DNA from: Labyrinthula sp. Ha
Taxonomy: Eukaryota > Sar > Bigyra > Labyrinthulida > Labyrinthulaceae
Direction: 5' to 3'
Length of the DNA: 64,000 bases
Assembly: GCA_015227615.1 (NCBI GenBank)
Contig: JAALGZ010000075.1
Span: 1-64,000 of the forward strand
Both the position numbers and the translations under genes were made by a program. Below, piece after piece: positions 315 to 30,241 of the stretch. The notes under the pieces are model-generated. The model had not been told where the DNA came from. It was given only the letters and a program-made list of their open reading frames with translations, and did not search any database. Within the stretch, counting starts at the first letter, position 1, and every line of letters begins with the position of its first letter.

Positions 315-3300
315 TTAGTGCTTTAGGTGATATTCTGGTTGCTGCGTTTTCTGTGGGTTGATTGTGGATGTTGTATCTTGGTCGAAGGATGGGTGTGTTG
401 GTCTTCTTCTCGTGTCCAGGCTTCTGTTCATATTCAAGTCCAAGTCTGCGTTCCTGCTCAAGTCCAAGTTCGTGTTCCTGTTCCTGTTCGTGTCCAAGTT
501 CCTGTTCAAGCTCTGGTTCGTGTCCAAGTGTTCTTCTGGTTCCTGGTTTCCTGTGCAGTTTGAAGGTTGGTTCTCATTTTCAAGGAGGTGGGTAAAGTGG
601 GATGGTGGTGGGTCCTCAGGCGGCACTGGTTCTTCTCCTAGTAACGCAAGTGGTTCATAGTAGTATATAGGTTTTGCTGTTGGTGGTGGTGATGGGTTTT
701 GAAGTTGGTATTCTCTCAGAGCTGTCAGTTCTTTATCGACAATATCTCTTGCTGTGGATTTATGGGTTTCCTGACGTTCTTTTACTATATTGGTGAGGTC
801 CAAGTCATCCTCTTCTAGTTGAAAGTCAAAGCTATCAATCCTGTTTATGGTTCTCTTCAGCCTTCTTGATATCTTTGTTAAGGCTTTTGTTATCTTCACG
901 TTGGATGGCCAGTTCTCTACATTGTATATGGCTGGAGCTATTACTAGTGCCCTTGCCAGATTGATTCTTGTTTTCTTTTGGATGTTTGAGGAAGATAATA
1001 TGTCTCTGAACCTGTTGATATGATTGTGTGCTTCATTTAACTTCTTGGAAATAGCATCAGCATTAATACCTTGTGGGTCAAAGATAGCTCCAAGATATTT
1101 GTACTTTGTCACGGCTTCAATTGTTTCTGCTGCTACTTCAACGTTGCTTGTTTTGGGTTGGATTTTGTCGTGTATGATCGTTCTACTGTCAGTAACAGCT
1201 AAAGTCCCAGCTCTGCTTCTGTTGCGTGTTCCATCACAAAACCTCGAGCTTTTGTGACACCTTAGTGACGTTTCTGAGTGAAAGTATCTATCGCAACGTT
1301 CACAGTGAAAGTTGGTCAATATTCTATTTATATCTACGTCTGGGATTTTATCAACCAAGCTGTAGCCTTCGTTTGTGAGCATAACTTTTGTCTTGCTAAC
1401 ATTAATTTTTAGGCCTGTGAGTTGCTGAAGGTTTTGCAGTTGCGTTACAAAGCTGATTATTTCTTCGTCGTTCCTTGTTAGTATTACCAAGTCGTCTGCA
1501 AAAGCAAAGTACCTGAAGGTTTGGTTGTGTAAGCTGGTTCCTTGTAAGGTATTATTTTTTATTCTCTTCATTATAGAGTCAAGACAGAGGATAAAGATGC
1601 TTGGAGACAAACTATCTCCTTGAAGCACACCTTTTTTTATGTTTACTAAACTACTTTTTTCTCCGCTGTCTGAAACGAAAACTTTGGTCTTGTCGTAAAG
1701 GATGGTGATAAGTTTGATGAGCTTTTTTGGTACATGATGTTCTTCTAGAGCTAGCTTCATAAATTTATGCGAAATACTATCAAAAGCTTTCGCAAAGTCT
1801 ATGAAAAGAATTCGAAGATATATTTTCTGTTTCAGAGTTTCCTTTATGATTGTATCAAGTGCTTCAATTTTCTGTATCGTTGAGCGGTTGTTTCTGAATC
1901 CTGCTTGGTAATCTGGGAGTTTATTTAGTATTGGTGCTATTCTGTTATTGATGATTTTTGTGAGGAGTTTGAAGTGAGTGTTCAATAGTGAGATTGGTCT
2001 ATAATTGGAGGGATCATTTTTACTTCCTTTCTGCTTGTATAGATACACTACTTTGCCTCTGCAGATTTTCCTCATCTTTTTAGACTTGAATGCATCTAGC
2101 CTAAAGAAAGATTGGATTTCTCTAACAGCATGACTTTGAACTATTTCAACGTGCTTTAGGACTTCGTTTCTTATGTTATCTGGTCCTGGAGCTTTGTTAT
2201 TTTTTAGGGTTTTGATGCATTCTTTGATCTCTTCTGCCTTTGGAGGATGTATGTTTATGCTGTTCGAAGGAGCCGGTGCAAGTATTGGAGTTTGGTAATG
2301 TCGTATTTGGTTTTCCGTCAACAAGTTCGTTGGAAGTGGTAGGTTTTGTTGTTTCTCTAAATATTCTTTTAGTATCTGGATACGACCTGCGGTTCCCACC
2401 AACTTCCCAGCTGTATTCTTGGTTATTTTACCGAACTGTTTACGGACTGGTTTTACCTTCTTTATCAGTTGGTACCCAGTTCTCGTATTGTTGCTTTGAA
2501 ATGCAGTTTCTATTTCAGACGCTATTCTCTCCAACCAGTTGCTGTAGTCTTCCTTAGCTGATGTTTTTACTTCGTTTGTAATTCTTTTCTTCTCCTCAGA
2601 ATTCAGGTTGTTCCAGTTGGCTCGTTTGTACCGCATCATAGAAATGGTTTGTTCCGAGTTTTGGTGTTCAGGAAGGTTGTACTTGACTTCTGGGAGATGT
2701 TTCTTCATGATTGATGGAATTGAGCGGGTTAGTGTAAGGTAGGTGTCTGTGAGTGCGTCGTTTAGTTCAAGTACCTCTTTGAGTTCGCTGTTTATCTTTT
2801 GCTGTAGCGCTGCGTTGGACCTTAGTGTACTGTAGTCAAGCTGAGATGTGGTTCTCTTCCCCGGTGTATGTTTCGGATGTATGTTCACTCTTACTGTAAG
2901 AGCAAGATGGTCAAAGTTTTTCTTCATCCACAGGTTGTATGCTATGGTTGAGGATATTTTGAAGCCAGTTATTGCAGGTACATGGTTCGTGATTACATAG
3001 TCAATTTCGGATGGCCCCCCACTATTTGACCTTGGCATGAATGTAGCATGTTTCCTAGATCCTTTTTTGCCTGTAACAGCTTTATGGTTACAGATTGTTA
3101 GCTCTTTTTCTTTCAAGAACTCCACCAAGAGTTTACCATTAGAATTCGTACGATGAGAGAGTCCTAGTTTACCTTCTACATTTAATTCCTTTCTTGAAAC
3201 TTGAGCATTGAAATCACCACAAATGAGAACCAACCTTCTCTTGTTAACTTCATTCAGCTTCGACTTGAGCTCCTTCAGGTACATCTTGTACGTTTCTTGA

Positions 3301-3722
3301 CCGTGACCGCAGTGTGGCGCGTAAGTGTTAACCAAAACGAGACTTCTTTTTCCACCTAGTTTGACAACCAGCTTCAGGATCCTGTCGCTTCTTCCGTCTG
3401 TGTCCGTTACTTGACTAGCAAGCTCGTTACACAGGAAAGTCGCTACGCCCGCTGCTTTTTCAGGCAGTTTTGAGAAAAACCACCTTCCTGAAGCCGAGCT
3501 AACGTTCACCATTCGCTGCAGGCGTTGCATTCCTTGCTTGTGCAGTTCCTGTAACATTAAAATTTCAGTTTTTTTAGTAAGTTGTTGTACGTAGCTGCAC
3601 TTAAAGGCAGTTAGACCACCAACATTCACGCTCACCAGTTTAGGAAAGCGCTTCAGTCGGCTCGCTATCCCTGGGACTTCTCTCGAAGGAGTAGACAGGT
3701 CGCTACTCTGAAAACTTTGCAT
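315..3722 (-). CDS. LINE ORF: AP endonuclease - reverse transcriptase
   Basis: A 1135-residue protein that would nick target DNA and copy its own RNA (target-primed reverse transcription). Residues about 28-275 are an exonuclease-endonuclease-phosphatase domain, with motifs such as ICGDFNAQV and SEIDYVITNH. RT spans about 480-780, with IDFAKAFDSISH, GVLQGDSLSPSIF and the catalytic FADDL near residue 740. After the RT palm a C2H2 zinc finger (CERC...H, about residues 802-825) is inserted before the thumb-like region. The last ~90 residues are low-complexity Asn/Asp/Arg/Leu repeats encoded by a minisatellite. The ATG at 3722 is the natural start, since the decayed copy at 30430 begins with the same residues (MQSFQ). 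The frame is open throughout, so the copy may be recent. LINE clade not assigned. Confidence 0.9.
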   Translation of the reverse strand: MQSFQSSDLSTPSREVPGIASRLKRFPKLVSVNVGGLTAFKCSYVQQLTKKTEILMLQELHKQGMQRLQRMVNVSSASGRWFFSKLPEKAAGVATFLCNELASQVTDTDGRSDRILKLVVKLGGKRSLVLVNTYAPHCGHGQETYKMYLKELKSKLNEVNKRRLVLICGDFNAQVSRKELNVEGKLGLSHRTNSNGKLLVEFLKEKELTICNHKAVTGKKGSRKHATFMPRSNSGGPSEIDYVITNHVPAITGFKISSTIAYNLWMKKNFDHLALTVRVNIHPKHTPGKRTTSQLDYSTLRSNAALQQKINSELKEVLELNDALTDTYLTLTRSIPSIMKKHLPEVKYNLPEHQNSEQTISMMRYKRANWNNLNSEEKKRITNEVKTSAKEDYSNWLERIASEIETAFQSNNTRTGYQLIKKVKPVRKQFGKITKNTAGKLVGTAGRIQILKEYLEKQQNLPLPTNLLTENQIRHYQTPILAPAPSNSINIHPPKAEEIKECIKTLKNNKAPGPDNIRNEVLKHVEIVQSHAVREIQSFFRLDAFKSKKMRKICRGKVVYLYKQKGSKNDPSNYRPISLLNTHFKLLTKIINNRIAPILNKLPDYQAGFRNNRSTIQKIEALDTIIKETLKQKIYLRILFIDFAKAFDSISHKFMKLALEEHHVPKKLIKLITILYDKTKVFVSDSGEKSSLVNIKKGVLQGDSLSPSIFILCLDSIMKRIKNNTLQGTSLHNQTFRYFAFADDLVILTRNDEEIISFVTQLQNLQQLTGLKINVSKTKVMLTNEGYSLVDKIPDVDINRILTNFHCERCDRYFHSETSLRCHKSSRFCDGTRNRSRAGTLAVTDSRTIIHDKIQPKTSNVEVAAETIEAVTKYKYLGAIFDPQGINADAISKKLNEAHNHINRFRDILSSSNIQKKTRINLARALVIAPAIYNVENWPSNVKITKALTKISRRLKRTINRIDSFDFQLEEDDLDLTNIVKERQETHKSTARDIVDKELTALREYQLQNPSPPPTAKPIYYYEPLALLGEEPVPPEDPPPSHFTHLLENENQPSNCTGNQEPEEHLDTNQSLNRNLDTNRNRNTNLDLSRNADLDLNMNRSLDTRRRPTHPSFDQDTTSTINPQKTQQPEYHLKH
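405..545. repeat. Short-unit tandem repeat inside the LINE ORF
   Basis: Degenerate tandem copies of a roughly 6-12-base unit (variants of GTTCCTGTTC and GTCCAAGTTC on the plus strand) run through this stretch. On the coding (minus) strand they give the Asn/Asp/Arg/Leu-rich tail of the LINE protein. Units are multiples of three, so the frame is kept. It looks like minisatellite growth at the 3' end of the ORF. Confidence 0.7.
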
Positions 3723-3964: not shown

Positions 3965-4531
3965 ATGGTGAAAAATATCTGTATCCCAATATATAAAGAA
4001 TCCATATCTTCCCTTTCAAGAACAAACCTAACTTCCTCTGTTTTGCGAAGGAAATTCTTCTTTCAAACGTTACAAAAACTACAGAAACAAAACTGGTTCT
4101 TTCTTCACGTATTATTTCCACAAAACCTTCGAAAAATATTTAAACTTTTCGTTCTTTTCTTTATATTCATCTTTCAAAAGTTAAAAAAACTACTTTTTGC
4201 TTTTGAAAATATTCAGATCGAAACGAAATCTGTGTCTTCAACCAACAGCTCATTAGATGACTTTGAAGACTTTGAACAAGAAGAAACTGATTTAGAACCT
4301 CCAGATAAAGAACTCTATGAGAAATTTGCTCAAATTTTGTCAACTCATCTCAAAATAATTGATAAACAACGCCAAGAGACATTTTCTCAATGCTCAATAT
4401 GTATGAACACATCCAACTGTCAAACTTTTTCCCAAGCAAGTTGTAAACATTCATTTCACTTAAGCTGTCTGCAAACTTGGTGTACATATGGTCACAGTAC
4501 TTGTCCAATATGCAGAGAATTCTTATTATAA
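3965..4531 (+). CDS. RING-H2 finger protein with a hydrophobic segment
   Basis: A 188-residue probable E3 ubiquitin ligase. The C-terminal RING-H2 (about residues 143-186) reads C-x2-C (CSICM), then C-x-H-x2-H-x2-C (CKHSFHLSC), then C-x2-C (CPIC), which is the full set of eight zinc ligands in cross-brace order. A hydrophobic stretch near residues 60-78 (KLFVLFFIFIFQKL) could anchor it in a membrane, as in many small RING-H2 ligases. An acidic Ser-rich linker (DDFEDFEQEE) joins the two. The ATG at 3965 is the first in frame, but the basic N-terminus is not conserved with anything I recognise, so a later start is possible. The stop is 12 bp from the convergent TMEM120 stop. Confidence 0.75.
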   Translation: MVKNICIPIYKESISSLSRTNLTSSVLRRKFFFQTLQKLQKQNWFFLHVLFPQNLRKIFKLFVLFFIFIFQKLKKLLFAFENIQIETKSVSSTNSSLDDFEDFEQEETDLEPPDKELYEKFAQILSTHLKIIDKQRQETFSQCSICMNTSNCQTFSQASCKHSFHLSCLQTWCTYGHSTCPICREFLL

Positions 4532-4543
4532 CTTATTGTTGAA

Positions 4544-5563
4544 TTAATTATTTTTCTTCTCTATTCTTTTTCTCCACTTTTTCTTCAACGTCATCAAAGT
4601 CGTTGTCATATTTCCAAGCCCCATTGAAAACTGTAAAACTCCAGAAGATATTATTTGCAACTCTTCTTGCCAATCTTGCCAAACTTTTCCTTCTTTAGCA
4701 CTTGAAAACAACCCTCCAAATCCAAGCAAATATGCACCTCCACATTCCATAAACCACGTCTTCATCAAACTCAATCCAATCAAAATCTCCCACAGTTGCA
4801 CGCACATAACACAGGCTATATACACCTTAAATACGTTCTGCAGTGAAACATCCCTTGTAACTATTGTCTCCTGGTAAGTAACATCCATATTCGACCTATA
4901 CTTGCCCAATGCTCGATTTGCATACTCTCTTTTTTTGTGATAATAATTTAACAAATTTGCAACTAAACCGTTAAATAATCCAAAGCACATATAAAACGGA
5001 ACGTATGACTGATAATGCCCTCCTGGCACATTTGGCCATACTAGTAGTGCAACGGCTTGACAAGCTGCTAAATAGTGATGCGTTAACCACCATTTATGAA
5101 TATTTGAGCCGTTTAATAGTAGGATTGATTCTCTTAGAGCGGATGAGAGGTAAAAATAAAGAAGCCAAAGACCATAAAAAGTGTGTATCCAATGAGTATC
5201 TGTCCAATGATATTGTAAATAGAAGTGAAAGAATAGGACAACGAGAGGGAAGATGCAGTAGATTATGTTAGCGCGAAGTTTGAAAGAGTTGTATTCGTCT
5301 CGTAGTTTAAGCCTGTCAGATTCGAAGGAGAAACGTAGGTTGATATCCCCAAGCATGAAGCGCATGAACTTTGAAGATGCTTTGAAGGGAGGACATATGC
5401 GAACATTTTGGTTGTGAAGGTCTTTCAAGGAAGACAAGTTTTGATTCTGGTCTTGGGTTAGAGCTTTGAGTGCGTGGTCATTTTCTGTGTTTAACGTTGA
5501 AATTTCAGACTTCAACCTACAAAGTTCTCGAGTCAATCTCTCCATTTCCTTAGCTCTTAACAT
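4544..5563 (-). CDS. TMEM120/TMPIT family membrane protein
   Basis: 339 residues, close to the ~340 of animal TMEM120A/B. The N-terminus (residues 4-50) is a coiled coil, followed by a six-helix-type membrane domain from about residue 97 onward. Family hallmarks are visible: LRESILLLNGS (143-153), a Trp-Trp pair (158-159) and HHY (162-164), which match the LRE-ILR-NGS...WW-HHY block of the human proteins. TMEM120 proteins sit in the ER/nuclear envelope, have an ELOVL-like fold and bind coenzyme A in solved structures; a role in lipid metabolism is likely but the reaction is unproven. Single exon, ATG at 5563. It is convergent with the RING gene and divergent from the CRAL-TRIO gene, with 253 bp between the two starts. 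Confidence 0.9.
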   Translation of the reverse strand: MLRAKEMERLTRELCRLKSEISTLNTENDHALKALTQDQNQNLSSLKDLHNQNVRICPPFKASSKFMRFMLGDINLRFSFESDRLKLRDEYNSFKLRANIIYCIFPLVVLFFHFYLQYHWTDTHWIHTFYGLWLLYFYLSSALRESILLLNGSNIHKWWLTHHYLAACQAVALLVWPNVPGGHYQSYVPFYMCFGLFNGLVANLLNYYHKKREYANRALGKYRSNMDVTYQETIVTRDVSLQNVFKVYIACVMCVQLWEILIGLSLMKTWFMECGGAYLLGFGGLFSSAKEGKVWQDWQEELQIISSGVLQFSMGLGNMTTTLMTLKKKWRKRIEKKNN

Positions 5564-5816: not shown

Positions 5817-6703
5817 ATGATTGTGATTAAGAAAATGGAGGAAAAATTAAGAGAAGAAGAAAAAGAGTTGTTCAGATTAACAACTATTGATCTGGGGCTG
5901 GATCCACTTCCAAAAGATAAGGAAAACATATTACTTCAGTTTGTAACACTTATTGAAATGAAAAAAGATGACTTTCTCTGTAAAGAACTTGATGCTGACA
6001 GTGAAAGCACCTTTGTTCTCGATCCTCCTTTTCTTTTGTAAACCTTTCCCCTTAAATGAACTTTAGGCGATTTTTAGCATCACGAGAATTTGATTTGAAT
6101 AAAGCTGTAGAATTTTTGAAAGCGCATTTAAAGTGGAGAGATGAAATCTTTCCAAGCTTACTGCTGTCTGACAATGTTTTCCCTCTTCTCCTGCATTCAA
6201 GCATCCTCCGCCCATTTGGAAAAACAAAAGACAATAAACCTTTAATTCTCTTTAGTCTTCCTTACTTAGATCGAATGAAAAAAACATCTAAAAATCTAGA
6301 TTTACCAACTACAGAGTACGTAAAGTACGTAGTTTACTTCATCGAGACAACGTTGGCCGAAAATAAGACTGGAAAATGTGTTTGGATATTTGATTTAAAT
6401 GGATGGGGAGTTACAACCCATGGTACTAGTATTGCTGAAGGTTCAGTAAATGATATAATTAGGCAAGTTTTGATCCTGTGTCAGAATCAGTACCCGGAAA
6501 GATTGAGTCAAGCGTTGATTTTGAACAGTCCTTGGTTGTTTTCAACTGCATGGAGTGTAATCTCTGGGTGGTTGGATAAGCAAACTCAAGGAAAAGTCAA
6601 ATTTTTGAATAAAAATAAAGACCTGTTGAAACATATTGACAAAGAAGAGTTACACGTGAGTTATGGTGGGACACATCCAGGACACCAGTTAAATTTGAGA
6701 TGA
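5817..6703 (+). CDS. CRAL-TRIO (Sec14-like) lipid-binding protein, two exons
   Basis: Exon 1 is 5817-6037, the intron 6038-6066 (29 nt, GTA...TAG) and exon 2 6067-6703. Joined, they give 285 residues. The splice restores the CRAL-TRIO N-domain motif LRFLASREFDLNKAVEFL at residues 74-91, which runs across the junction. The lipid-binding domain follows (about 110-270), with the family signature YPERLSQALILNSPWLF, then W...I..WLD..T..KV.FL and the closing ELHVSYGG. Sec14-like proteins exchange or present phosphoinositides and other hydrophobic ligands between membranes in the cytosol; the ligand cannot be told. An early helical region (EEKLREEEKELFRL) precedes the domain. Unspliced reading would stop in the intron, so a simple ORF call breaks the gene in two. 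Confidence 0.92.
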
Positions 6704-8959: not shown

Positions 8960-9430
8960 TGGAGTGCTAGTATAGGTTTCTACCTGTTAAAATACTTCTC
9001 TGATAAGTATTCTTTGATGCTGGTTTTTCTTAAAACTTCTGTTTAAATCTTCTGATTCTTCTCTTCTAAATCGCAAGGAAAAGTCGACACGAGTTCTTTT
9101 CTATATTTTTAACTATTAAGTTAGTGTCTGCTTAATACTCCCTCTAAACTTCCCACTGAACCAAATTCTACAGCTAATTAATACGCTAAAATATTCTAGT
9201 CTTTACACTGCAACTTCCTGTATTCTCTTCTCATATCCTTACCGGTATTCTTCCAGTTAGCTATGTTTCAATTTGAAATATATATCACGAGATTTCATTC
9301 ACCATACCACGTCATCACTTTAGTTAAAAGATGTTAGATTTCAAACTTCGTAAATACAATAAATTGCGAAACGATCTTTTACCAGAAATTACGAGCGCGG
9401 ATACATACCAAACTTCCCCATATTTCTACA
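8960..9430 (-). repeat. 3' LTR of the chromodomain retrotransposon
   Basis: 471 bp, starting TGGAGTGC and ending TTTCTACA on the plus strand, and nearly identical to 16425-16895. It is the downstream LTR because the coding strand is minus. Confidence 0.95.
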
Positions 9431-9442
9431 CCGCTCTCTTCT
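9431..9442 (-). other. Polypurine tract of the LTR element
   Basis: On the minus strand this reads AGAAGAGAGCGG, lies directly against the 3' LTR and is followed by the LTR's first bases TGTAG. It has the position and composition of the plus-strand primer site used by LTR retrotransposons. Confidence 0.75.
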
Positions 9443-9458
9443 AAGGCGCGAGTTATCC

Positions 9459-12400
9459 CTATCTTACTCCCTTCTCCCAATCAAATGGCGCAGCAAATGT
9501 CCACCAACCTTTTCTACAACCCCAATACCTTCCAAAAATCTCCAACTTCCTAACTCCTGGGTTCAATCTTTCTAATACTTCATATGCTTCTCGAGGCTTT
9601 CGACTTTGTTGGAGAACAGTGGAAACGATGACATCTGAACTTCTCTGTTTGGGTAAAACTGGACTTCCTTTAAATCCTACGAGCATAATTTCTTTAGAAT
9701 GCCTCAAGTATTGGCCTTGTGATGAGTGTTGATAACCATTCTTGGTTCTTTTGCTCCAGATGACGTATTCTACTAGACGGAAACCTTGGTTGCTCATCAA
9801 CTTTCGTCCAACATCTATCTTATTATTGGTCACCCACAAACCTACAATACCATCTTCCACAAGTTGTCCAAATGATATATTAAAGAGCTCCTTATCTGCT
9901 AACGTGGGATATTTTATGGTTAGCCCTCTCGTAGGACTGGATGAGGCTTGGTTTTCCCCCGGGGGATCAATCATTAAAACCCCAAATCTGCCAAACGATG
10001 TTAGATCCTGACATCTTATATCTCCGATTTTTAACTTGCTTCCGACAGGCTGCCTCCATAGTACAAGGTCATTAAACATATCTTCTCTTTTATATTTTAT
10101 TGTAAAGTATGAATCAGCAGGTGAACCAAAGATGGACCATTCAAAACCTTCAGGATCATTTTCTAATAGATTGGACAGTTTGGAACGATATCTTCTCCTC
10201 TCAACTACCTTCGATTTTTCCTTCTCTAAAAACTCCTCCCACTTATCTAGAGCGGTTACAACTTCTACTCTCTTTAATTCTGAAACTATTTCTAATTCAC
10301 TTTGAGATCGATTTTTTAATAATTCTAGAGGACTGATCTTCATTTTCTTGAGCCAGTTATTTCCCAATATGAACTTATTTGTATTGCAACTTAGGACATA
10401 GAAATGCGTATCTGGAAGCTCTAGAAATATGCCTTCTCCTTTTAGACAACAATGAATTTTTATGTAGCCGATGATATCAATCTGAACGCCAGAAACTCCT
10501 TTACATCTCGGGGCCTTTTTATGCAGTTCATCATTCTTATATATTGTTAATCCTCCCACTAAATTTTTACCAACGCAACTTTGCCACGCTCCACTATCAA
10601 GAAGAACATTATATTTATTATTTCCAAAAATTATCTTTAAAACGGATGATCTACTATGATTTGCTTCTACTTCCAAAACATCTATCTCTTTTCTATCTTG
10701 ATTTTTAAAAAGTTTGACAATCTTGGAAATATCTTCAATACTTAGCTGGCAGTTTGAAATTTGTTCTGCCGAAAGCAGCGGTATTTCTTCTTTCTTCTTT
10801 CCAAATTTCTGATATTGATGTAGATCTGACCAAGTCTTCCTTCTTATTTTCTTTAGTTCTTCTCTGGTCAATTGGACTCCGTTATTTATTATTACACCTT
10901 TCCTTCTAAAAACTGATCTTTTCTTATCATTGTAAGCTTTTACAATTCTTAAAGATATCTTGAGTCCGTGGAATTCATAGAGACGCTGACTTCCTATTGC
11001 AACTTTTACATATTCAACTAATTGGGACCTAGTTTTTCCGGGTAAATAACCTTCTTTCAAAATGGGTTCCCATTTTCCTAAACCGAATACATAAATGCAA
11101 TATTGAAGAGTATCTTTCTCATAGCTATTCCAGCCTTTGGACCTACTCAATCCTGGATACACTTGATCATTCAAAAGTTTTAGCTGTGGAGGATATTTTA
11201 TTATTTTCCAAGCTTCACTCAACCAGTCCGAACTTCTTAGCTGCGTTGCTTCTCGGAGTAAGTTTACTTCTGTTTCTTCTACTACTGTTGATTTTCTCTT
11301 ATATATATTGTAAGCTGACGTGAAATCTTCATGATCATTCTGATGTTGATTTAGGTATTTCTGGACTACACGAGGTACATCCTCAAATAGGAGCTGCAGG
11401 TCTTGCCAATTTGCATCTTTTCTGGGGAAACCTTTCCACCAGACAAGTGCTTCAAAACCTTCAACTGATTTCCTAATGTCCAGAAGCTTGTGCACTTCAT
11501 ATACTCCCTGATTGTAGTAGAAAGCGGCCTTAACTTGATCTGATATTCTGAAATCAGTGGGCTGCGCTTCATAGAGACTGAGTCTCTGAGCATGCGCAAC
11601 ATAATTCTTGCCATCTATGCTCTTTACTCTATAGGTAGTCGTACCTAGAACATCTGTTACTATATATGGACCCAGCCATCTTAGATGCAGTTTACCTTGG
11701 GCTCTTTGAGTACCTATATTACTCATAAGTACAAAATCTCCTGGTGCAAATTGCACTTGAGAAGATTTGAACTTTCGATTTATATATTCTCTTTTTCTCC
11801 TTCTATCTTCTACTATGATTGGAAATATTTTTGTTCTCCTATTCTCTATCTCTGATAATAGTTTATGGCATAGATCAATAAAACGAGCTGGATCTTTTGG
11901 AAAAACAATTTTGTTTGCTGAATTTATTAATGGAAAAGGTTTCAATTTCCTGGCTGGTTCGGCTACCATTTCGTTTTTTCTACCGAAGATGGAAGTCAGT
12001 TCATTAGGTGTGAAGCCTTTTCGAGTTGGTGTGTTGTTTATTACATCTGTGACCAGGTCTACGAGCTCATACCATCGGTCTCGATCAAGATTGTATTCGC
12101 TGCAAAGTTGCCTGAGATACCTCAGGATATATCTATTCATCACTTCAATGGAGCCATTGCTCCATGGTGAATACACCACTGAAAAATGGTGTTGCCCACC
12201 ATAGATGGAATTAAATTCTGAAACAATCTGGTTGCAGAAATGAGAACCATTGTCAGTGGAAAGTTTAAAACCCGAAGGCATTCCGTGCTCTGCCCTCCAC
12301 CTAACTAGCCCCTTTACTACAACGTGAGCACTTGGGCTTGGGTCATATATCATAAGAACTTTCCGAGATATATCCTCGACTAAAACTAACAGGTATCCCG

Positions 12401-15400
12401 AATATACTTTCATAAAATCGGAATGCAGTAATAATTCAGAAGAATCAACTGCATGAGGTATTTCTTTATATATTCTTCTCTCCAACTTTAGGTCTTTATC
12501 GCAGTGCAAGCATAACCTCTTTAATTTGGAGGCTAACATTCTGACATCTGATTTATTAAGACCTTGAAACTTATATTTATTCAAAATACGAACCACTTCT
12601 TCTACGCTTCCATGTTTACTTATTTGATGAGCTAACACTAAAAATCTCTCTACATGCTGTGGATGTATCAAGATCTCTCCTGCTTTATTTCTGTATAATC
12701 CATCTTCAGATGAGTTTACATGCGCAGTCGATTTTATTTTATCTTGTTTTTGGAGGTTCAATAGCTCTTTAACTGAGAGGTCTTTCCATTTTATTTTATT
12801 TTTAGGAAAGTTTCTACCTACTCTGGCTTCTATGAAGGATACAGATTCTGGATCAAACCTCCATCCTTCCTGCTTATTTTCAATCAATCCTACAAATGAC
12901 TGCCCCTTCTCTTTACGAATATTCACGATTTTCTTCTTCTCCAACTCAATGTCCTTCTCCCTGACCAAAAAAGTTATTCCTTTCCAGGTGAGGGTCCAGT
13001 TGTAATCATCCGTTGTTGGCATGCTCTCAGTCTCAGTGCCCGCTGTCGATCCTAGATATCCCCAGCGCGTAAGTAAATCTGCAAGTACATTATGTTGTCC
13101 ACCTATATGGTAGACTTCAACGTCGAATTCTTGCACTGTCAAAATCCACCTCTGGATTCTGCCAAAGGAAGATTGTTTCAAGTCTCTCGGGCTGCTCATG
13201 AGGTGCTTCACATTCATGTGATCAGTAAATATTTTTATTTTTCTAGTGACATTTATTAGTAAGAAACGATATCTTCGAAGGGTGCGGATGATGGGGTATA
13301 TTTCCTTATCTGTTATTGACCAGAATCTTGACGACTGAGTAAATTCTCCGCTGACGAAGAATATTGGCTCCCACCCATCTCCCGAAAAGCTAGCTAGAAC
13401 GCTGGACCAATATTTATCGCTGGCATCAGTAAAGATGCCCATCTGGCCGTCAGCTTCAAAAATTTTCAACTTTTTCTCTTGGCATCCCTCGATTATCTGC
13501 AGAAACTTCTGGAACTCTACTTGATCTTCCTCTCTCCACCACTTCCCTATGTCTACTTTCTTTCTGGCATCCTTCCTCATCTTTTTCCCTTTTTCCAATT
13601 TGATGTTCTCTTCAATTTCCCTCATTTTTGTATTTAAATGTCCTTTATTTTTACTTAGGTTGGGCAAAGAATCTGATAACCAAGTTGATACATACACTAC
13701 GTCTTGAAGTTGGCCAAGTGTTTGTGGACGCGGCAACTTTATAATTTTAGCGAAATAACTTGAGTCATATTTCCAATGACCTTTTTCCAGGATCCTGCCA
13801 CACCATTTGGTTTTCGATTGGATTAGATCGCACTTGTCCAAGTTGAGTTTGAACTTCTTTTGGATGCAATTTTTTAGGAACGTTCCAAGTAGTTGAAGAT
13901 AACCTGCAAACGAGTTATGGTATAATAGAGTATCATCTAACCATTGCAGGGCTCCTGCTCCGAATATCGAATCTCCCTCACTATTTGTCAATACCTCGTT
14001 TACCAGCCGTTCTTGATACACCTGTGGTGTATTTCGGAACCCTTGTGGTGCCATGCGCATACAATACGTACCAAGAGGTGTCACCATTCCGAAGTATTTA
14101 TATGAAGTTTCCTCCATCTTCAAATAGTCAAATCCCGAAAGGCCGTCGAAAGAACCGAACCAACATTCATTCCCCTTTAGCCATCCAAGTTGCGCCTCAA
14201 GGTCGGGCAAGCCAAGCCCTGTTGGCAAACAGTTTTTGTTCACCTTCCTCAAATCTACAACCATCCTGTATTCCGTTGGCTTCCTTGGCTTGGGCAACAT
14301 CATCACTGGACTAGAGAAAAATGGGTTGGGTTCCCGGTAGATCATGCCCATGTCAGTGAGCTCTTGTATCTTTTTCTTTAATTCTTCTAGGATAAGTTTC
14401 TTCACTGGATATGGTTTGGATACAAAAGTGCTGCTTGATGGATTTATTTCAACCCTCATTGGAGTGAGGTTGTTGAATTCACATTTGGCTTCTTTAAAAG
14501 CAAAGGCTGCTTTGAACTCCTTCAAAACCTTTTCTAACTCTGTTGCCTGTTCTAAATTCAAAGCTTGAGCCTTCACTAGGTCTTCAACTTTCTTTTCTAT
14601 TTTATTATTTAGGAGCTGCTGCATTTTTGGAGTGTCGATGTGAGGTTTGCTGGATGACGCTCCCACCTCATATTCCTTTCTCAGAATTTCATCCGACAGC
14701 TCATCCCGATAATATGCATGCTCGGCGTAGTCCGGTACTTCTCCCTCCTCTGCTGGTCCTACTTCCTCATCACTACTATTCGAACTCACCTCCGCAACTT
14801 TCCAGTCTCCCATTTCAACCATGTACATTTCTGGAATATCGACTGGATCTACACTTTCTACTGTGGGAACTACGCTGTCACCGGTTACCCCCGATACTCC
14901 CCCGAGGTTCCCGACCTCAGATGAGTCCTTCTGGTTATCCCTTGATACTTCATTCACCTGGTGTTTCTCCGAGGTTCGGTGTTGATGCGTATTTTGCTGA
15001 TGGTTTTGTTGTTGGAAATTCGAACCCCTACCATATCCTCCTCCAGTTTCCCGCTCTTTTTCTCGTTTCTTTAGTAAAGGGCAACCTTGTGCATAGTGGC
15101 CAGTAGAAAAGCAGTATCCGCAAAGATTATTTTCTCTGGAATATGCCCTTCTTTTCTCCAATGGCCATCCTCTGGGTACAATATGTTTCTGATATCCATT
15201 AGCTAAGGTAATTATTTTTAATTCACTATTTTTAGGATAAAAGGCTGAAGAAGCTGATTTCTTTACTGCACTCTGCTGTGTGTGATCTGGTGAACTCCTT
15301 TTTGTCTTGGAAATCTTCTGATGTTGAAGGGCAGCGCTTTGGATGTCCCACGTTGAAATTGATATCGCCGCTCTTCGCAACCCTCTCTTCAACTGCTTGT

Positions 15401-16373
15401 ACGTCCTCCAACCTTCTTCCGTCTGTCTCTCTTTTGCTCTACTGCTACCAAATTCGGTTGGGAGTCTCTTGATTATTTTTAGGCACACTTCTTTTTCTAT
15501 GCTCTTATTGTCGAAATGAATTCCGCGAAGTATTTTATCTGCTGCCTTCAAGAATGCTCCCATAGAAGCTGAAGGACTTCCCAAGTTCTTCCACTGGATA
15601 CCTTCTACCTCCCTTATTACGATTTTGGACCTACTACGATCCTCGTTCTTTTTTATTTTTCTTAAATACTTTAGGATCTTGGCCTGGACTGTCATATCAA
15701 AGCCTTCCTCAACTAAATCAACCTTCACTTCATTGGTCAAACATAAGGACAGATCTGCTACCGAAAGACCAAAGCGGCGTCGCACTACCATGGCCTCGTA
15801 AATATCGTATTCTGCGATGAATTTTGAAACCACTGGGGGGTCAAGATTAGGCAAGATTGGCTTGTCCTTGTATCTTTCCTCCCTTGTTCTGCCTTTAGCT
15901 TCGTTCCTAATTAAAGTGGGTACAGGTTGGAGTTCCGTTTCTTCTTCTTCACTACTGGAGCTATCGCTTGGTGAACTTTCTTCTAGATCTGCCTGCTCAT
16001 GATGTATTCTAAATGGGGTATGAATGTTTGAAGGAGTGGTATAACCAGTTGGACTATTTGACAAAGGTGGGCTCACACCGCGTTTTAGGAGGTTCAAGCT
16101 TCGTCTTATCTCCTCCCATTCCTGCCTTGACAAAGTGACTGTATCACTCTGTACCCCCTTTTCGGGAGTAGGATTTACTGCTGCTGGACCAGTTGATATT
16201 TCACCCTCAAATGACGGGGTTTCTTCTATTGGTTGTACGTTGACTGTTACTGAAGTATTATGGGTTTCTTCTATTTTTTCTTCTGTATTTGTGGGAACGG
16301 TTTCACCAGTTCTTGGTTCACTGGCACGGGTTCCCAATCTGCTGGATCTTCTTAAGGTTCTTCTTTCGCTCAT
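9459..16373 (-). CDS. Gag-Pol polyprotein with chromodomain, Myb-like, protease and MT-A70 domains
   Basis: 2304 residues in one frame. In order (approximate residues): a Gag-like region with a CCHC zinc knuckle (417-431, C-x2-C-x4-H-x4-C); reverse transcriptase (650-860) with LDD near 811; RNase H (970-1100) starting FTDASDK; integrase (1240-1420) with an HHCC zinc site and D, D, E near 1318, 1373 and 1409; chromodomain (1620-1680, YEVHKLLDIR...WWKGF); Myb/SANT-like domain (1743-1795, GWNSYEKDTL...GKWEPIL); retropepsin-like domain (1920-2010, LLDSGA then ILGNNWL); and an MT-A70-type methyltransferase domain (2125-2290) with MIDPP, GLWVTN, HSKEIMLVGFKG and LNPGVRKLEIFGR, closely like METTL3/IME4. 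The protease after integrase and the methyltransferase are unusual. Gag and Pol appear fused, with no shift needed. The protein is presumably cut by its own protease. Confidence 0.92.
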   Translation of the reverse strand: MSERRTLRRSSRLGTRASEPRTGETVPTNTEEKIEETHNTSVTVNVQPIEETPSFEGEISTGPAAVNPTPEKGVQSDTVTLSRQEWEEIRRSLNLLKRGVSPPLSNSPTGYTTPSNIHTPFRIHHEQADLEESSPSDSSSSEEEETELQPVPTLIRNEAKGRTREERYKDKPILPNLDPPVVSKFIAEYDIYEAMVVRRRFGLSVADLSLCLTNEVKVDLVEEGFDMTVQAKILKYLRKIKKNEDRSRSKIVIREVEGIQWKNLGSPSASMGAFLKAADKILRGIHFDNKSIEKEVCLKIIKRLPTEFGSSRAKERQTEEGWRTYKQLKRGLRRAAISISTWDIQSAALQHQKISKTKRSSPDHTQQSAVKKSASSAFYPKNSELKIITLANGYQKHIVPRGWPLEKRRAYSRENNLCGYCFSTGHYAQGCPLLKKREKERETGGGYGRGSNFQQQNHQQNTHQHRTSEKHQVNEVSRDNQKDSSEVGNLGGVSGVTGDSVVPTVESVDPVDIPEMYMVEMGDWKVAEVSSNSSDEEVGPAEEGEVPDYAEHAYYRDELSDEILRKEYEVGASSSKPHIDTPKMQQLLNNKIEKKVEDLVKAQALNLEQATELEKVLKEFKAAFAFKEAKCEFNNLTPMRVEINPSSSTFVSKPYPVKKLILEELKKKIQELTDMGMIYREPNPFFSSPVMMLPKPRKPTEYRMVVDLRKVNKNCLPTGLGLPDLEAQLGWLKGNECWFGSFDGLSGFDYLKMEETSYKYFGMVTPLGTYCMRMAPQGFRNTPQVYQERLVNEVLTNSEGDSIFGAGALQWLDDTLLYHNSFAGYLQLLGTFLKNCIQKKFKLNLDKCDLIQSKTKWCGRILEKGHWKYDSSYFAKIIKLPRPQTLGQLQDVVYVSTWLSDSLPNLSKNKGHLNTKMREIEENIKLEKGKKMRKDARKKVDIGKWWREEDQVEFQKFLQIIEGCQEKKLKIFEADGQMGIFTDASDKYWSSVLASFSGDGWEPIFFVSGEFTQSSRFWSITDKEIYPIIRTLRRYRFLLINVTRKIKIFTDHMNVKHLMSSPRDLKQSSFGRIQRWILTVQEFDVEVYHIGGQHNVLADLLTRWGYLGSTAGTETESMPTTDDYNWTLTWKGITFLVREKDIELEKKKIVNIRKEKGQSFVGLIENKQEGWRFDPESVSFIEARVGRNFPKNKIKWKDLSVKELLNLQKQDKIKSTAHVNSSEDGLYRNKAGEILIHPQHVERFLVLAHQISKHGSVEEVVRILNKYKFQGLNKSDVRMLASKLKRLCLHCDKDLKLERRIYKEIPHAVDSSELLLHSDFMKVYSGYLLVLVEDISRKVLMIYDPSPSAHVVVKGLVRWRAEHGMPSGFKLSTDNGSHFCNQIVSEFNSIYGGQHHFSVVYSPWSNGSIEVMNRYILRYLRQLCSEYNLDRDRWYELVDLVTDVINNTPTRKGFTPNELTSIFGRKNEMVAEPARKLKPFPLINSANKIVFPKDPARFIDLCHKLLSEIENRRTKIFPIIVEDRRRKREYINRKFKSSQVQFAPGDFVLMSNIGTQRAQGKLHLRWLGPYIVTDVLGTTTYRVKSIDGKNYVAHAQRLSLYEAQPTDFRISDQVKAAFYYNQGVYEVHKLLDIRKSVEGFEALVWWKGFPRKDANWQDLQLLFEDVPRVVQKYLNQHQNDHEDFTSAYNIYKRKSTVVEETEVNLLREATQLRSSDWLSEAWKIIKYPPQLKLLNDQVYPGLSRSKGWNSYEKDTLQYCIYVFGLGKWEPILKEGYLPGKTRSQLVEYVKVAIGSQRLYEFHGLKISLRIVKAYNDKKRSVFRRKGVIINNGVQLTREELKKIRRKTWSDLHQYQKFGKKKEEIPLLSAEQISNCQLSIEDISKIVKLFKNQDRKEIDVLEVEANHSRSSVLKIIFGNNKYNVLLDSGAWQSCVGKNLVGGLTIYKNDELHKKAPRCKGVSGVQIDIIGYIKIHCCLKGEGIFLELPDTHFYVLSCNTNKFILGNNWLKKMKISPLELLKNRSQSELEIVSELKRVEVVTALDKWEEFLEKEKSKVVERRRYRSKLSNLLENDPEGFEWSIFGSPADSYFTIKYKREDMFNDLVLWRQPVGSKLKIGDIRCQDLTSFGRFGVLMIDPPGENQASSSPTRGLTIKYPTLADKELFNISFGQLVEDGIVGLWVTNNKIDVGRKLMSNQGFRLVEYVIWSKRTKNGYQHSSQGQYLRHSKEIMLVGFKGSPVLPKQRSSDVIVSTVLQQSRKPREAYEVLERLNPGVRKLEIFGRYWGCRKGWWTFAAPFDWEKGVR

Positions 16374-16424
16374 GATTTACTACTTTTATTATTTTTGGCA
16401 CTTCTGATCTTATTGAATTCAATA

Positions 16425-16895
16425 TGGAGTGCTAGTATAGGTTTCTACCTGTTAAAATACTTCTCTGATAAGTATTCTTTGATGCTGGTTTTTCTTAAAA
16501 CTTCTGTTTAAATCTTCTGATTCTTCTCTTCTAAATCGCAAGGAAAAGTCGACACGAGTTCTTTTCTATATTTTTAACTATTAAGTTAGTGTCTGCTTAA
16601 TACTCCCTCTAAACTTCTCACTGAACCAAATTCTACAGCTAATTAATACGCTAAAATATTCTAGTCTTTACACTGCAACTTCCTGTATTCTCTTCTCATA
16701 TCCTTACCGGTATTCTTCCAGTTAGCTATGTTTCAATTTGAAATACATATCACGAGATTTCATTCACCATACCACGTCATCACTCTAGTTAAGAGATGTT
16801 AATTTTCAAACTTCGTAAACACAATAAATTGCGAAACGATCTTTTACCAGAAATTACGAGCGCGGATACATACCAAACTTCCCCATATTTCTACA
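16425..16895 (-). repeat. 5' LTR of the chromodomain retrotransposon
   Basis: 471 bp matching 8960-9430 with about seven differences. It should carry the element's promoter (U3) and the transcript start. The polyprotein ATG lies 51 bp beyond its inner edge, leaving a very short leader. Confidence 0.95.
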
Positions 16896-27394: not shown

Positions 27395-30241
27395 CTACCT
27401 CTGCATTTGACTTAGGAACTCATCCGCAAGATCATCGTTGAAACCAAGGGTAGATAAGTCATGTATATTCAGTTGTCCAACCATTTGGAGATCGAACAAT
27501 CCAGCGTCGGCAAAAATTTCACGAACGATCGCATGCTTTTTTACTTCTTCGTTTTTCACCTGGAAAAAGGTAGAAGTAGACAAGTGCTTTTCTAAGAGTT
27601 TTCTCCGTTGGATGAATTCAAGGTGTATCTCGGCTTCTTCGCTTGATCTAAATTTAAGCTGGCAGCTTTTCCATATATCAAGAATCTCTCTTGATTTAAG
27701 AGGTTTTTCAGTGTAAAAATCTTCACAACGTTTACATACACAAAAAGTGCATCTCATACAAGAAAACTTCGCGCCTGCTTCATATCTACTATGGCAAAAG
27801 TAACAAAAGTTCTGGGAGGTCGTCGGCTCTGCATCTTGATTTTTTCTGGCCTCCACGTGAAAACTAAAACAGTGCTTCTGGCCAGAGGGACATAATCCTA
27901 AACGCACATCTGGTTGATTCTCCTCAGAAAGTAACAAAGTAAGTCTTCTAAACTCATCACAACTAAATAATAAAGAAAAACAGTAAGGAGAAAAACAGGT
28001 TGTGAATATCTGTGTGGGAAACTCTTTGATTAAATCTTTTTCGTAGAGAATAAAATATCTGTACTGCTCATCGAAATCGGTTATATTAAAATAAGAAGGT
28101 TTGTACAGGCCATAAGTCAGTACAGAGAGAAAAAAATAATCCAAGATTAAAAAGCCTTTCTCTATCAGAATATCACGGTTAAACCAATGGGCAAGCTCAA
28201 AATATTCCGTAAACGTAGGTTTTTCTAAGAACGTGATGTTCTTCTTGAAAAATAGTTTAATTAACCCCCTTTGGGTGAATATATGGTTCCCTTCGTGAAT
28301 TTCATTTGCACAGAAAAAACTGAAAGCGTCTAACATTCTGTACCTAAAATTATCATTATCTGAAATAACTTTAAACAAAGTTTCAAACTCACTTTGCACT
28401 GGTTTCTTAATAAGTTTTCTAATGACAAATCCACTATTCACATTTGGTTCAACATCCCGAACTCGTGCTCCACATTCAACAAGTAAATCTAAGATTTCTT
28501 GCCGATCTGTACCCAAGTACTTGGCGAAAGCATATTCCAGTAGATTAAACTCATATGGAATACCAAAATTATTTTCTCCTTCTGCAACTGCCCAATTTAT
28601 TGTTTTATCGAAATCAAAGTCGTCATCAAGTCTTAGTAAATTCTCTATAACAACTTTGAATACAGCTATTATTTTTTTCTCTTTATCCATCCATAACTTA
28701 TGATGAGTTAAATTATCAAAACAAGTTCGCAATAATTTTCTAAGAGTTTCGTTCGAAATATCACTTTTTTGTAATTGGGAAAACAGAAGTTTAAACACTT
28801 CAGAAGAAATTTGCGTTATATTTTTTTCAAGAATGCTTGGGTCATCAAATACACATCCATGAGAGAATAAATGTTTTAATGTTGAAGTATCTTGAGAGGT
28901 TTTTCCTTTTCCTATAACCAGTTTTGGCAATTCCAGTGTAATTAAGTTTGTACCTCGACGTTTTAGAAAGTCGAATAAAAGCTGAAAGATTGCTTTATGT
29001 TTATCCTTGTAACTTGAATTTAAATCAAACACCTCAGTTACATAAAACAAGAGTGTTTCTTTCACAATGCTGTTTAAGAACGGTCTCTGCTGCTTCTCCA
29101 ACTCCACCATTAAAACCTCCAACAATTTTGAGTCTATACTCTGAATAACTTTTCCCAAAAGTGACTTTTTCCAGTCTATTCTAGACCCACTTATAACCTT
29201 TTCACTATCTTCAGTCGAATCCAAATCCTTTTCTTTTTCATCTTTCTTTTCATCGTCCTCAACGGCTACATTATAATAACTAAAGTTTGCTCCCATTTTA
29301 AACAAACACTCAAAAAGTTCATATTTCTCCTTCCTCAAGTTAATGGCTGAATATTGAAGAATAGTACCTTCATGATTATTAAGTTTTCCGTTCAAATTAA
29401 AACCATATTCTACCAAAAGCTCCATGCATTGAATGCACTCTTCAATATAAATTTTATCCAAAGAGAAAGCTTTCAAAAAAGGCTCCTCACCATCACTTGG
29501 GTTAATTAACAGAGAATTCTCATTTTTACTGAGATCAGTTGGGGATTTGGACGGAAACATTCTTTCCAATACTTCTTTCAGCATTCTTGGGTTGGGCTTA
29601 GCGACTAGTTTATGCAGAATGTTCACATTGTTGTAAGTAGCGCTTAAGCCTAGGTTATGTCTTATGAATAAGTCAAGAAAACCAAAATCATCCACGTTGG
29701 GCAAAAAAAAAATTAATCTAGAGAGTGAAATTTGGTCAGATTGTAGACTTTTTCTTAATCCATAGTCAAACAATTGCTCTAATATATCTCTTTTCTTCAA
29801 GAACAAAGCAGTTCTTCCTGTCCAATGCCCGGATTTTGTCCCAAAAAACTTTTCAATTTTTTCTTTTTTTGGCTTATCCAAAAATAAACGAATAACTTCC
29901 TCATTTCCGTTAATAATCGCAAAAGTTAACGGACAATATTTTATCTGGCCGAAAATTGTTTTTGGGCCTAAAACAAAAGCTTCAAGATCAATGTCTTCTC
30001 TTTCTAGAAGTGTTTCCACACATTCCAAGTCATTAAAACAAACTGCAAGATGTAAAGGTGTATAGCTAAAAGTTGATTTATAATTAACTTCCTCAGATTT
30101 TGCAGTGTTTACAATTTTCTTAAACTTTTGAAGTTGCGCATTAAGTACTGTTTGGTCTATTGAGTCTTTTCTCTTGAGAAGTATATCAAATAATTTATTT
30201 TTCTTCTTTGGTATTCGAGGAGGAGCGGGACAGTTTTTCAT
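27395..30241 (-). CDS. Large ankyrin-repeat protein with Cys-rich zinc module and SAM-like C-terminus
   Basis: 948 residues, single exon. Ankyrin repeats are clear near the N-terminus (about 55-130: TPLHLAVCFNDLECVETLLE; PLTFAIINGNEEVIRLFLD) and more degenerate ones recur at about 145-180, 260-330 and 430-640 (for example EILDLLVECGARV). An acidic Lys/Glu/Asp loop lies near 330-350. Around 815-845 a Cys-rich module, CYFC...C-x2-C-x2-C-x-C-x2-C (CMRCTFCVCKRCEDFY), looks like a DC1, ZZ or B-box-type zinc site. The last ~45 residues (AGLFDLQMVGQLNIHDLSTLGF...) resemble the second half of a SAM domain (L..L...DL..LGF). This is probably an intracellular scaffold; no ortholog is recognised. The zinc and SAM calls rest on motif spacing only. 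Confidence 0.82.
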   Translation of the reverse strand: MKNCPAPPRIPKKKNKLFDILLKRKDSIDQTVLNAQLQKFKKIVNTAKSEEVNYKSTFSYTPLHLAVCFNDLECVETLLEREDIDLEAFVLGPKTIFGQIKYCPLTFAIINGNEEVIRLFLDKPKKEKIEKFFGTKSGHWTGRTALFLKKRDILEQLFDYGLRKSLQSDQISLSRLIFFLPNVDDFGFLDLFIRHNLGLSATYNNVNILHKLVAKPNPRMLKEVLERMFPSKSPTDLSKNENSLLINPSDGEEPFLKAFSLDKIYIEECIQCMELLVEYGFNLNGKLNNHEGTILQYSAINLRKEKYELFECLFKMGANFSYYNVAVEDDEKKDEKEKDLDSTEDSEKVISGSRIDWKKSLLGKVIQSIDSKLLEVLMVELEKQQRPFLNSIVKETLLFYVTEVFDLNSSYKDKHKAIFQLLFDFLKRRGTNLITLELPKLVIGKGKTSQDTSTLKHLFSHGCVFDDPSILEKNITQISSEVFKLLFSQLQKSDISNETLRKLLRTCFDNLTHHKLWMDKEKKIIAVFKVVIENLLRLDDDFDFDKTINWAVAEGENNFGIPYEFNLLEYAFAKYLGTDRQEILDLLVECGARVRDVEPNVNSGFVIRKLIKKPVQSEFETLFKVISDNDNFRYRMLDAFSFFCANEIHEGNHIFTQRGLIKLFFKKNITFLEKPTFTEYFELAHWFNRDILIEKGFLILDYFFLSVLTYGLYKPSYFNITDFDEQYRYFILYEKDLIKEFPTQIFTTCFSPYCFSLLFSCDEFRRLTLLLSEENQPDVRLGLCPSGQKHCFSFHVEARKNQDAEPTTSQNFCYFCHSRYEAGAKFSCMRCTFCVCKRCEDFYTEKPLKSREILDIWKSCQLKFRSSEEAEIHLEFIQRRKLLEKHLSTSTFFQVKNEEVKKHAIVREIFADAGLFDLQMVGQLNIHDLSTLGFNDDLADEFLSQMQR

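Follow-up and report, generated by a model that had tools for sequence, protein, structure and literature searches.

Ty3-like retrotransposons of Labyrinthula sp. Ha encode a putative AMT1-type adenine methyltransferase and a p1-like domain behind integrase and chromodomain

Background

DIRS elements are tyrosine-recombinase elements whose methyltransferase is of the bacterial Dam-like kind, not MT-A70, and to our knowledge they carry no p1. With the elements studied here they share the possession of an N6-adenine methyltransferase by a retroelement (cited in PMC5890265 and PMC6338049). Cytosine DNA methyltransferases (DNMTs) are found in the retrotransposons SymbioLINE-Dnmt, SymbioDIRS-Dnmt3 and KnitGypsy-Dnmt3 (PMC5890265). 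In these retroelements, too, a DNA methyltransferase has been acquired, and in the Gypsy element among them the DNMT is in Pol and has a Ka/Ks below 0.2; their enzyme belongs, however, to an unrelated family, and the parts of that report that describe them mention no second subunit. Ty3/Gypsy elements of orchids also encode an enzyme of nucleic-acid methylation, the AlkB RNA demethylase, but this is an RNA m6A eraser in a separate ORF and not a writer (PMC9289625).

The closest known system for the enzyme itself is the ciliate AMT1 pathway, which writes 6mA on DNA and in which MTA1, MTA9, p1 and p2 are four separate proteins of one complex, MTA1c (PMC9174199, PMC12695648). Among the MTA1 residues named are Asp209, the catalytic Pro211 and the SAM-binding Asn360, and the substitution Asn360Ala abolishes MTA1c activity; MTA1 needs p2 to bind SAM, while MTA9 has a structural role (PMC9174199). 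p1 and p2 are described as co-occurring only with AMT1, and AMT1-dependent 6mA as accompanying transcribed chromatin in 6mA-bearing protists (PMC12695648). The elements reported here have catalytic and p1 domains homologous to those of ciliates, and most of the elements sampled retain the residues of the active site, but the two subunits are fused in a mobile polyprotein. Retrotransposons bearing a methyltransferase are known; what would be new here is a different enzyme family together with a captured partner subunit. Among the titles and abstract beginnings listed from the open-access literature no retroelement with an MT-A70 domain was found, and a description elsewhere (e.g., in Repbase reports) is possible.

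Results and discussion

Organization of the element

The window, i.e., the whole stretch of 64,000 nucleotides analysed, contains an element with the following features:

8960-16895, minus strand: LTR retrotransposon, Ty3-like and chromodomain-bearing, with LTRs at both ends
16425-16895, minus strand: 5' LTR, 471 bp, identical to the 3' LTR at 464 of 471 positions
8960-9430, minus strand: 3' LTR, 471 bp, with a purine-rich stretch directly inside
9459-16373, minus strand: single stop-free ORF, polyprotein of 2304 aa
15054-15866, minus strand: gag-like region, residues 170-440, with a CCHC zinc-knuckle pattern at its end (15081-15122)
13797-14294, minus strand: reverse transcriptase (RT), PF00078 (RVT_1), E 1.3e-12, above the Pfam cut-off
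13125-13445, minus strand: RNase H, PF17917, E 7e-20; two RNase H models above the Pfam cut-offs
12165-12422, minus strand: integrase core, PF00665 (rve), E 5.4e-6, 27.0 bits, below the cut-off of 32.6
11349-11501, minus strand: chromodomain, PF00385 (Chromo), E 3e-6, above the cut-off
10848-11144, minus strand: p1-like Myb/HTH domain, residues 1744-1842, best PDB match p1
10335-10646, minus strand: aspartic protease, residues 1910-2013, RVP below the cut-off
9498-9986, minus strand: MT-A70 methyltransferase domain (PF05063), AMT1/MTA1-like, residues 2130-2292
9957-9968, minus strand: catalytic motif, DPPG in this copy
9516-9533, minus strand: GRYWGC, where MTA1 has its SAM-binding Asn360

The first-pass annotation had proposed an MT-A70 domain in frame with the polyprotein of a Ty3-like element, and this was borne out: the paired LTRs enclose a stop-free frame whose C-terminus matched PF05063 strongly (E 1.8e-28; 100.1 bits against a Pfam cut-off of 23.9). 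LTRs, RT, RNase H, integrase and chromodomain are shared with the chromoviruses, and the order RT-RNase H-integrase followed by the chromodomain was seen in the window and in the other elements examined. Unlike in chromoviruses, p1 and MT-A70 are added after the chromodomain, and the protease has moved in the window clade. Chromo was above its cut-off in the window ORF and in all four further element ORFs scanned, and rve scored 35.4, 32.4, 29.7 and 32.3 bits in four other elements, i.e., above the cut-off of 32.6 in one of the four. MT-A70 was the only methyltransferase among the Pfam matches of five element polyproteins, which included neither a DNMT or Dam domain nor a CCCH zinc finger. The Pfam scan gave no gag match for the gag-like region, and similar stretches were present in some other elements of the genome. 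Both LTR flanks of the window element were read for a target-site duplication and showed no clear match.

In the window element the protease comes after the p1-like domain and ahead of MT-A70, not before RT. Its RVP match, with the segment scanned alone, was below the cut-off (E 0.0077), and the motifs LLDSGA ... ILGNNWL were as expected. The protease was also found between p1 and MT-A70 in the elements L035, L039 and L050, and before RT in L034 and L037; it has moved within one group of elements.

The surroundings of the element comprise ordinary-looking host genes: TMEM120 (4544-5563, minus strand), CRAL/TRIO (6056-6703, plus strand) and a RING finger gene (3965-4531, plus strand). Farther away are an ankyrin-repeat protein (27395-30241, minus strand) and a protein with Roc (above the cut-off) and COR-A-like (below the cut-off) domains (59760-61667, plus strand). 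At 315-3722 (minus strand) there is a LINE-like ORF, 1135 aa long, that encodes an endonuclease and an RT; many RVT_1 matches of like score occur in the genome, and the top one among the candidates scored was C49:6683-7465, inside an open frame of 2901 aa. The GC content of the window was 27-44% in 2-kb blocks, mostly 30-40%.

Copies in the genome

We searched the genome (50.8 Mb in 153 contigs) by scoring in each search the best 146-150 of 318-660 candidates, so that all counts are lower bounds. The union of searches gave at least 267 distinct MT-A70 places, one of them the host AMT1 gene and not each shown within an element; they were spread over many contigs, lay in many cases in frames of at least 2000 aa and were 25-96% identical to the window domain. 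RT places most like that of the window had an MT-A70 domain downstream on the same strand in 126 of 140 cases (merged, among the matches listed); three of the other 14 were inspected and turned out to be a contig end, a place with MT-A70 present after all, and a truncated copy. Similarly, 126 of the 150 p1-like places among the matches listed had MT-A70 0.2-2.6 kb downstream, and two of the remaining 24 were host p1 genes. Other copies with the same fusion, which the earlier annotation had suggested looking for, were therefore abundant, with at least 126 p1-MT-A70 pairs. A one-off host capture, a chimeric assembly or chance was rejected on the number of MT-A70 places, their spread over many contigs, their frequent long frames and varied identity, and the low dN/dS at family level (see below); we regard the probability of such an origin as vanishingly small.

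Twenty elements (L032-L051), picked for divergence and mostly for long frames, some of them clipped at one end, were compared domain by domain. Each of them had RT, RNase H, integrase, a chromodomain and MT-A70, and 19 of the 20 also had the p1-like domain; RT to MT-A70 formed one open frame in 18, the frame being broken in L045 and L050.

Four pairs of MT-A70 places on one strand were separated by about 6.8-7.2 kb (C132:835181/842421, C62:563447/570262, C1:1636122/1643108 and C132:959619/966595), with equal or near-equal scores within each pair and a spacing of about one element; perhaps these are tandem elements sharing one LTR, or local duplications. Protein searches with the window, which were restricted by length and word limits and are silent on the fusion in other species, matched only EukProt proteins (two in one search and four in another), probably from the same organism since the host AMT1 is present there at 100% (P0008). 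The single proteins tried had no relative in IMG/VR and GTDB contigs.

The p1-like domain and the identity of the methyltransferase

The p1-like domain, missed by the first-pass annotation, which had noticed MT-A70, is the strongest clue to a DNA target. In the window its sole PDB match at E≤0.1 was p1 of the Tetrahymena MTA1 complex (1.2e-16 over 99 residues). A profile of 19 element p1-like domains scored 80 bits with p1, 48 with the next protein, SNAPC4 (a Myb protein), and 27 with p2. The general Myb Pfam model matched 11 of the 19 (best 1e-6), and gave no match with the window domain at E up to 1. In the window clade the likeness to the two host p1 genes extended beyond the Myb fold; the structure model of the domain had a mean pLDDT of 48. 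By these comparisons the element would encode two of the four subunits of a 6mA complex, fused behind integrase and chromodomain.

PF05063 matched all 20 elements sampled, and the profile of their MT-A70 domains scored 219 bits with MTA1, 148 with METTL3, 84 with METTL14 and 65 with METTL4, whereas the window sequence alone was near a tie (MTA1 107.8 vs METTL3 102.6 bits). AMT1 and all 20 elements share the pattern P-[TSVI]-R, with P219 and R221 of the P-T/S-R-G motif present in every element; in the alignment METTL3 was without this AMT1-type stretch. The model of the window MT-A70 domain (mean pLDDT 73) gave its best Foldseek E-values to METTL3, and among the 50 matches listed the TM-scores (query length) were 0.64-0.69 for METTL3 and 0.65-0.73 for MTA1. 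In an MT-A70 tree with a single METTL3 (22 of 120 listed host-AMT1 relatives, midpoint root, with a long-branch warning), METTL3 fell among the AMT1 rows, and the tree did not distinguish between descent from AMT1 and from METTL3. As to the question which METHYLTRANSFERASE, the comparisons make descent of the element MT-A70 from AMT1 rather than METTL3 likely, mainly because of the p1 domain upstream. The earlier assignment to METTL3/IME4 was right about the MT-A70 family, but the family profile, the P-T-R motif and p1 point to AMT1/MTA1.

The host genome has its own AMT1 gene (L052, 327 aa, 58% identical to MTA1), whose best named matches were in Mucochytrium and Hondaea (65%) and which grouped weakly with both (84/83). 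It also has two free-standing p1 paralogues, L053 and L054, whose open frames are 227 and 384 aa long. No METTL3 orthologue was seen among the best-scored candidates, where introns could hide one; the best match of human METTL3 was the host AMT1, at 44%.

Active site

Among the 20 divergent elements Asp209 and Lys334 were kept in all, Arg357 in 19 and Asn360 in 18, while His297 of the MTA9-contact loop was kept in 13 and the column taken for Asp182, via alignment to the host AMT1, had D in 13. Position 212 was aromatic in 19 (W in 17 and Y in two), and only the window copy had G there. In two elements Pro211 was replaced by A, giving DPAW. By these residues most of the other elements sampled look catalytically able.

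The window copy has kept Asp209 and has lost W212 and N360. Its DPPG is private to it, the last motif residue being W in the other 29 of 30 loci compared, whereas Asn360 was lost in all eight window-family copies compared. The first reading had noted the DPP motif; the loss of two active-site residues had escaped it, and because of that loss the window copy is probably a weak or dead enzyme. Most puzzling, the window family has lost Asn360 in all eight copies and yet shows low dN/dS over its longer, older branches, so catalysis may not be what is kept. A non-catalytic role of the window-family MT-A70, as for METTL14 or MTA9, may be one explanation.

History and selection

A supported branch (97/95; present in 99% of 200 bootstrap trees) had the element MT-A70 domains together on a single side. 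The same was true of the element p1 domains (100/97), in a tree with five of 19 inner branches well supported. The same four element groups, some weakly supported, appeared in the MT-A70 and p1 trees. Pairwise distances were correlated with those of RT at 0.84 for MT-A70, 0.84 for integrase, 0.86 for RNase H and 0.74 for p1 (permutation p 0.001 each). This co-variation of MT-A70 and p1 with RT is as expected from one old capture followed by vertical descent, although there may have been several captures.

Median dN/dS values, taken over pairs with dS 0.05-1.5 only, were low for MT-A70 in the window family (0.11; 21 of 28 pairs) and its sister family (0.06; four of 15 pairs). The corresponding medians for RT were 0.15 (13 of 21 pairs) and 0.05 (four of 15 pairs), and those for p1 were 0.09 and 0.11 and for protease 0.14 and 0.17 (4-21 usable pairs). 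Against its nearest copies the MT-A70 dN/dS of the window copy was about 0.8 (C78), 0.65 (C88), 0.3 (C106) and 1.0 (C140), three of these four pairs having dS below 0.05 and falling outside the filter for the family medians. Young copies look unconstrained, as expected after insertion. The end repeats of L035, L037, L039 and L040 were 99-100% identical; therefore such elements moved recently.

A proposed role and its alternatives

We propose that Ty3-like elements long ago took up AMT1/MTA1, the catalytic subunit, and p1, the DNA-binding subunit, at the end of Gag-Pol. The p1 module would bind DNA and the AMT1 module would transfer the methyl group; made together with integrase, they would accompany the cDNA inside the particle or the pre-integration complex, or be active where the element inserts, and from their place behind integrase they would for that reason reach the element cDNA or the insertion site. 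There ApT sites of the element's own DNA would be methylated, probably with help from host proteins, for instance p2 and MTA9/AMT7, the supply of p2 and MTA9 by the host being assumed. The 6mA mark might cause new copies to be read as active host DNA and expressed again, since AMT1-type 6mA goes with transcribed, H3K4me3-linked chromatin, and the mark could afterwards be preserved by the host AMT1, which is a maintenance enzyme. The window copy, with its two active-site losses, would probably be a poor enzyme of the AMT1 kind. We regard as evenly poised the claim that the element marks its own DNA as permissive chromatin through the captured AMT1-p1 pair; a point against self-marking is that 6mA is reported as not enriched on transposable elements in the species of PMC12695648.

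Chromodomains steer insertion, and p1 and MT-A70 are placed behind integrase and chromodomain, which fits a role as guide or scaffold: p1 with a weakened or non-catalytic MT-A70 would join the host AMT1 complex or bind linker DNA near promoters, and would steer integration or compete with the host AMT1. The window family lacks active-site residues, and some other elements have them altered; this, the low family-level dN/dS and the His297 retained in 13 of 20 elements agree with such a role, but the conservation of Asp209, Lys334 and, nearly so, of Asn360 suggests that catalysis is kept in most elements, and we hold this explanation to be rather unlikely. An enzyme that methylates the element's genomic RNA as an m6A writer seems improbable to us. 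The MT-A70 fold is common to METTL3, the near-equal window scores and the Foldseek E-values leave room for it, and in orchids an RNA m6A demethylase is encoded by Ty3 elements (PMC9289625); a METTL3-type enzyme was nevertheless rejected as first choice on the profile scores, the AMT1-type motif and the p1 partner domain, which speak against RNA as substrate together with the missing CCCH zinc finger and with a genome in which no METTL3 gene was seen (introns or unscored candidates could hide one). For Dam and DNMT retroelements a part in defence or competition has been proposed (PMC5890265, PMC6338049), and 6mA could accordingly shield the cDNA against sensors or enzymes of the host, or be directed at rival elements or DNA viruses; nothing in the present data is specific to this, which we consider quite improbable. 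We favour self-marking through AMT1-p1.

Conclusions

Extended to the whole radiation of these retrotransposons, self-marking would amount to epigenetic self-licensing: the cis-fused AMT1-p1 would stamp insertions with the mark of active host promoters, 6mA would be in part a tool of the parasite, and in some families the enzyme would have become a partner without catalytic activity. We put this wider reading forward tentatively, leaning slightly against it. To judge from the open-access papers listed, no mobile element with the AMT1-type 6mA writer of eukaryotes, or with two subunits of it, would have been described before. MT-A70 families have been called relatively static in eukaryotic evolution, and 6mA has been tied to active host genes (PMC12695648); a single genome with at least 126 pairs of p1 and MT-A70 would be a counter-example. 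The elements would also offer a natural test of whether 6mA causes open chromatin or follows it, in which element-written and host sites may be compared in the same cell.
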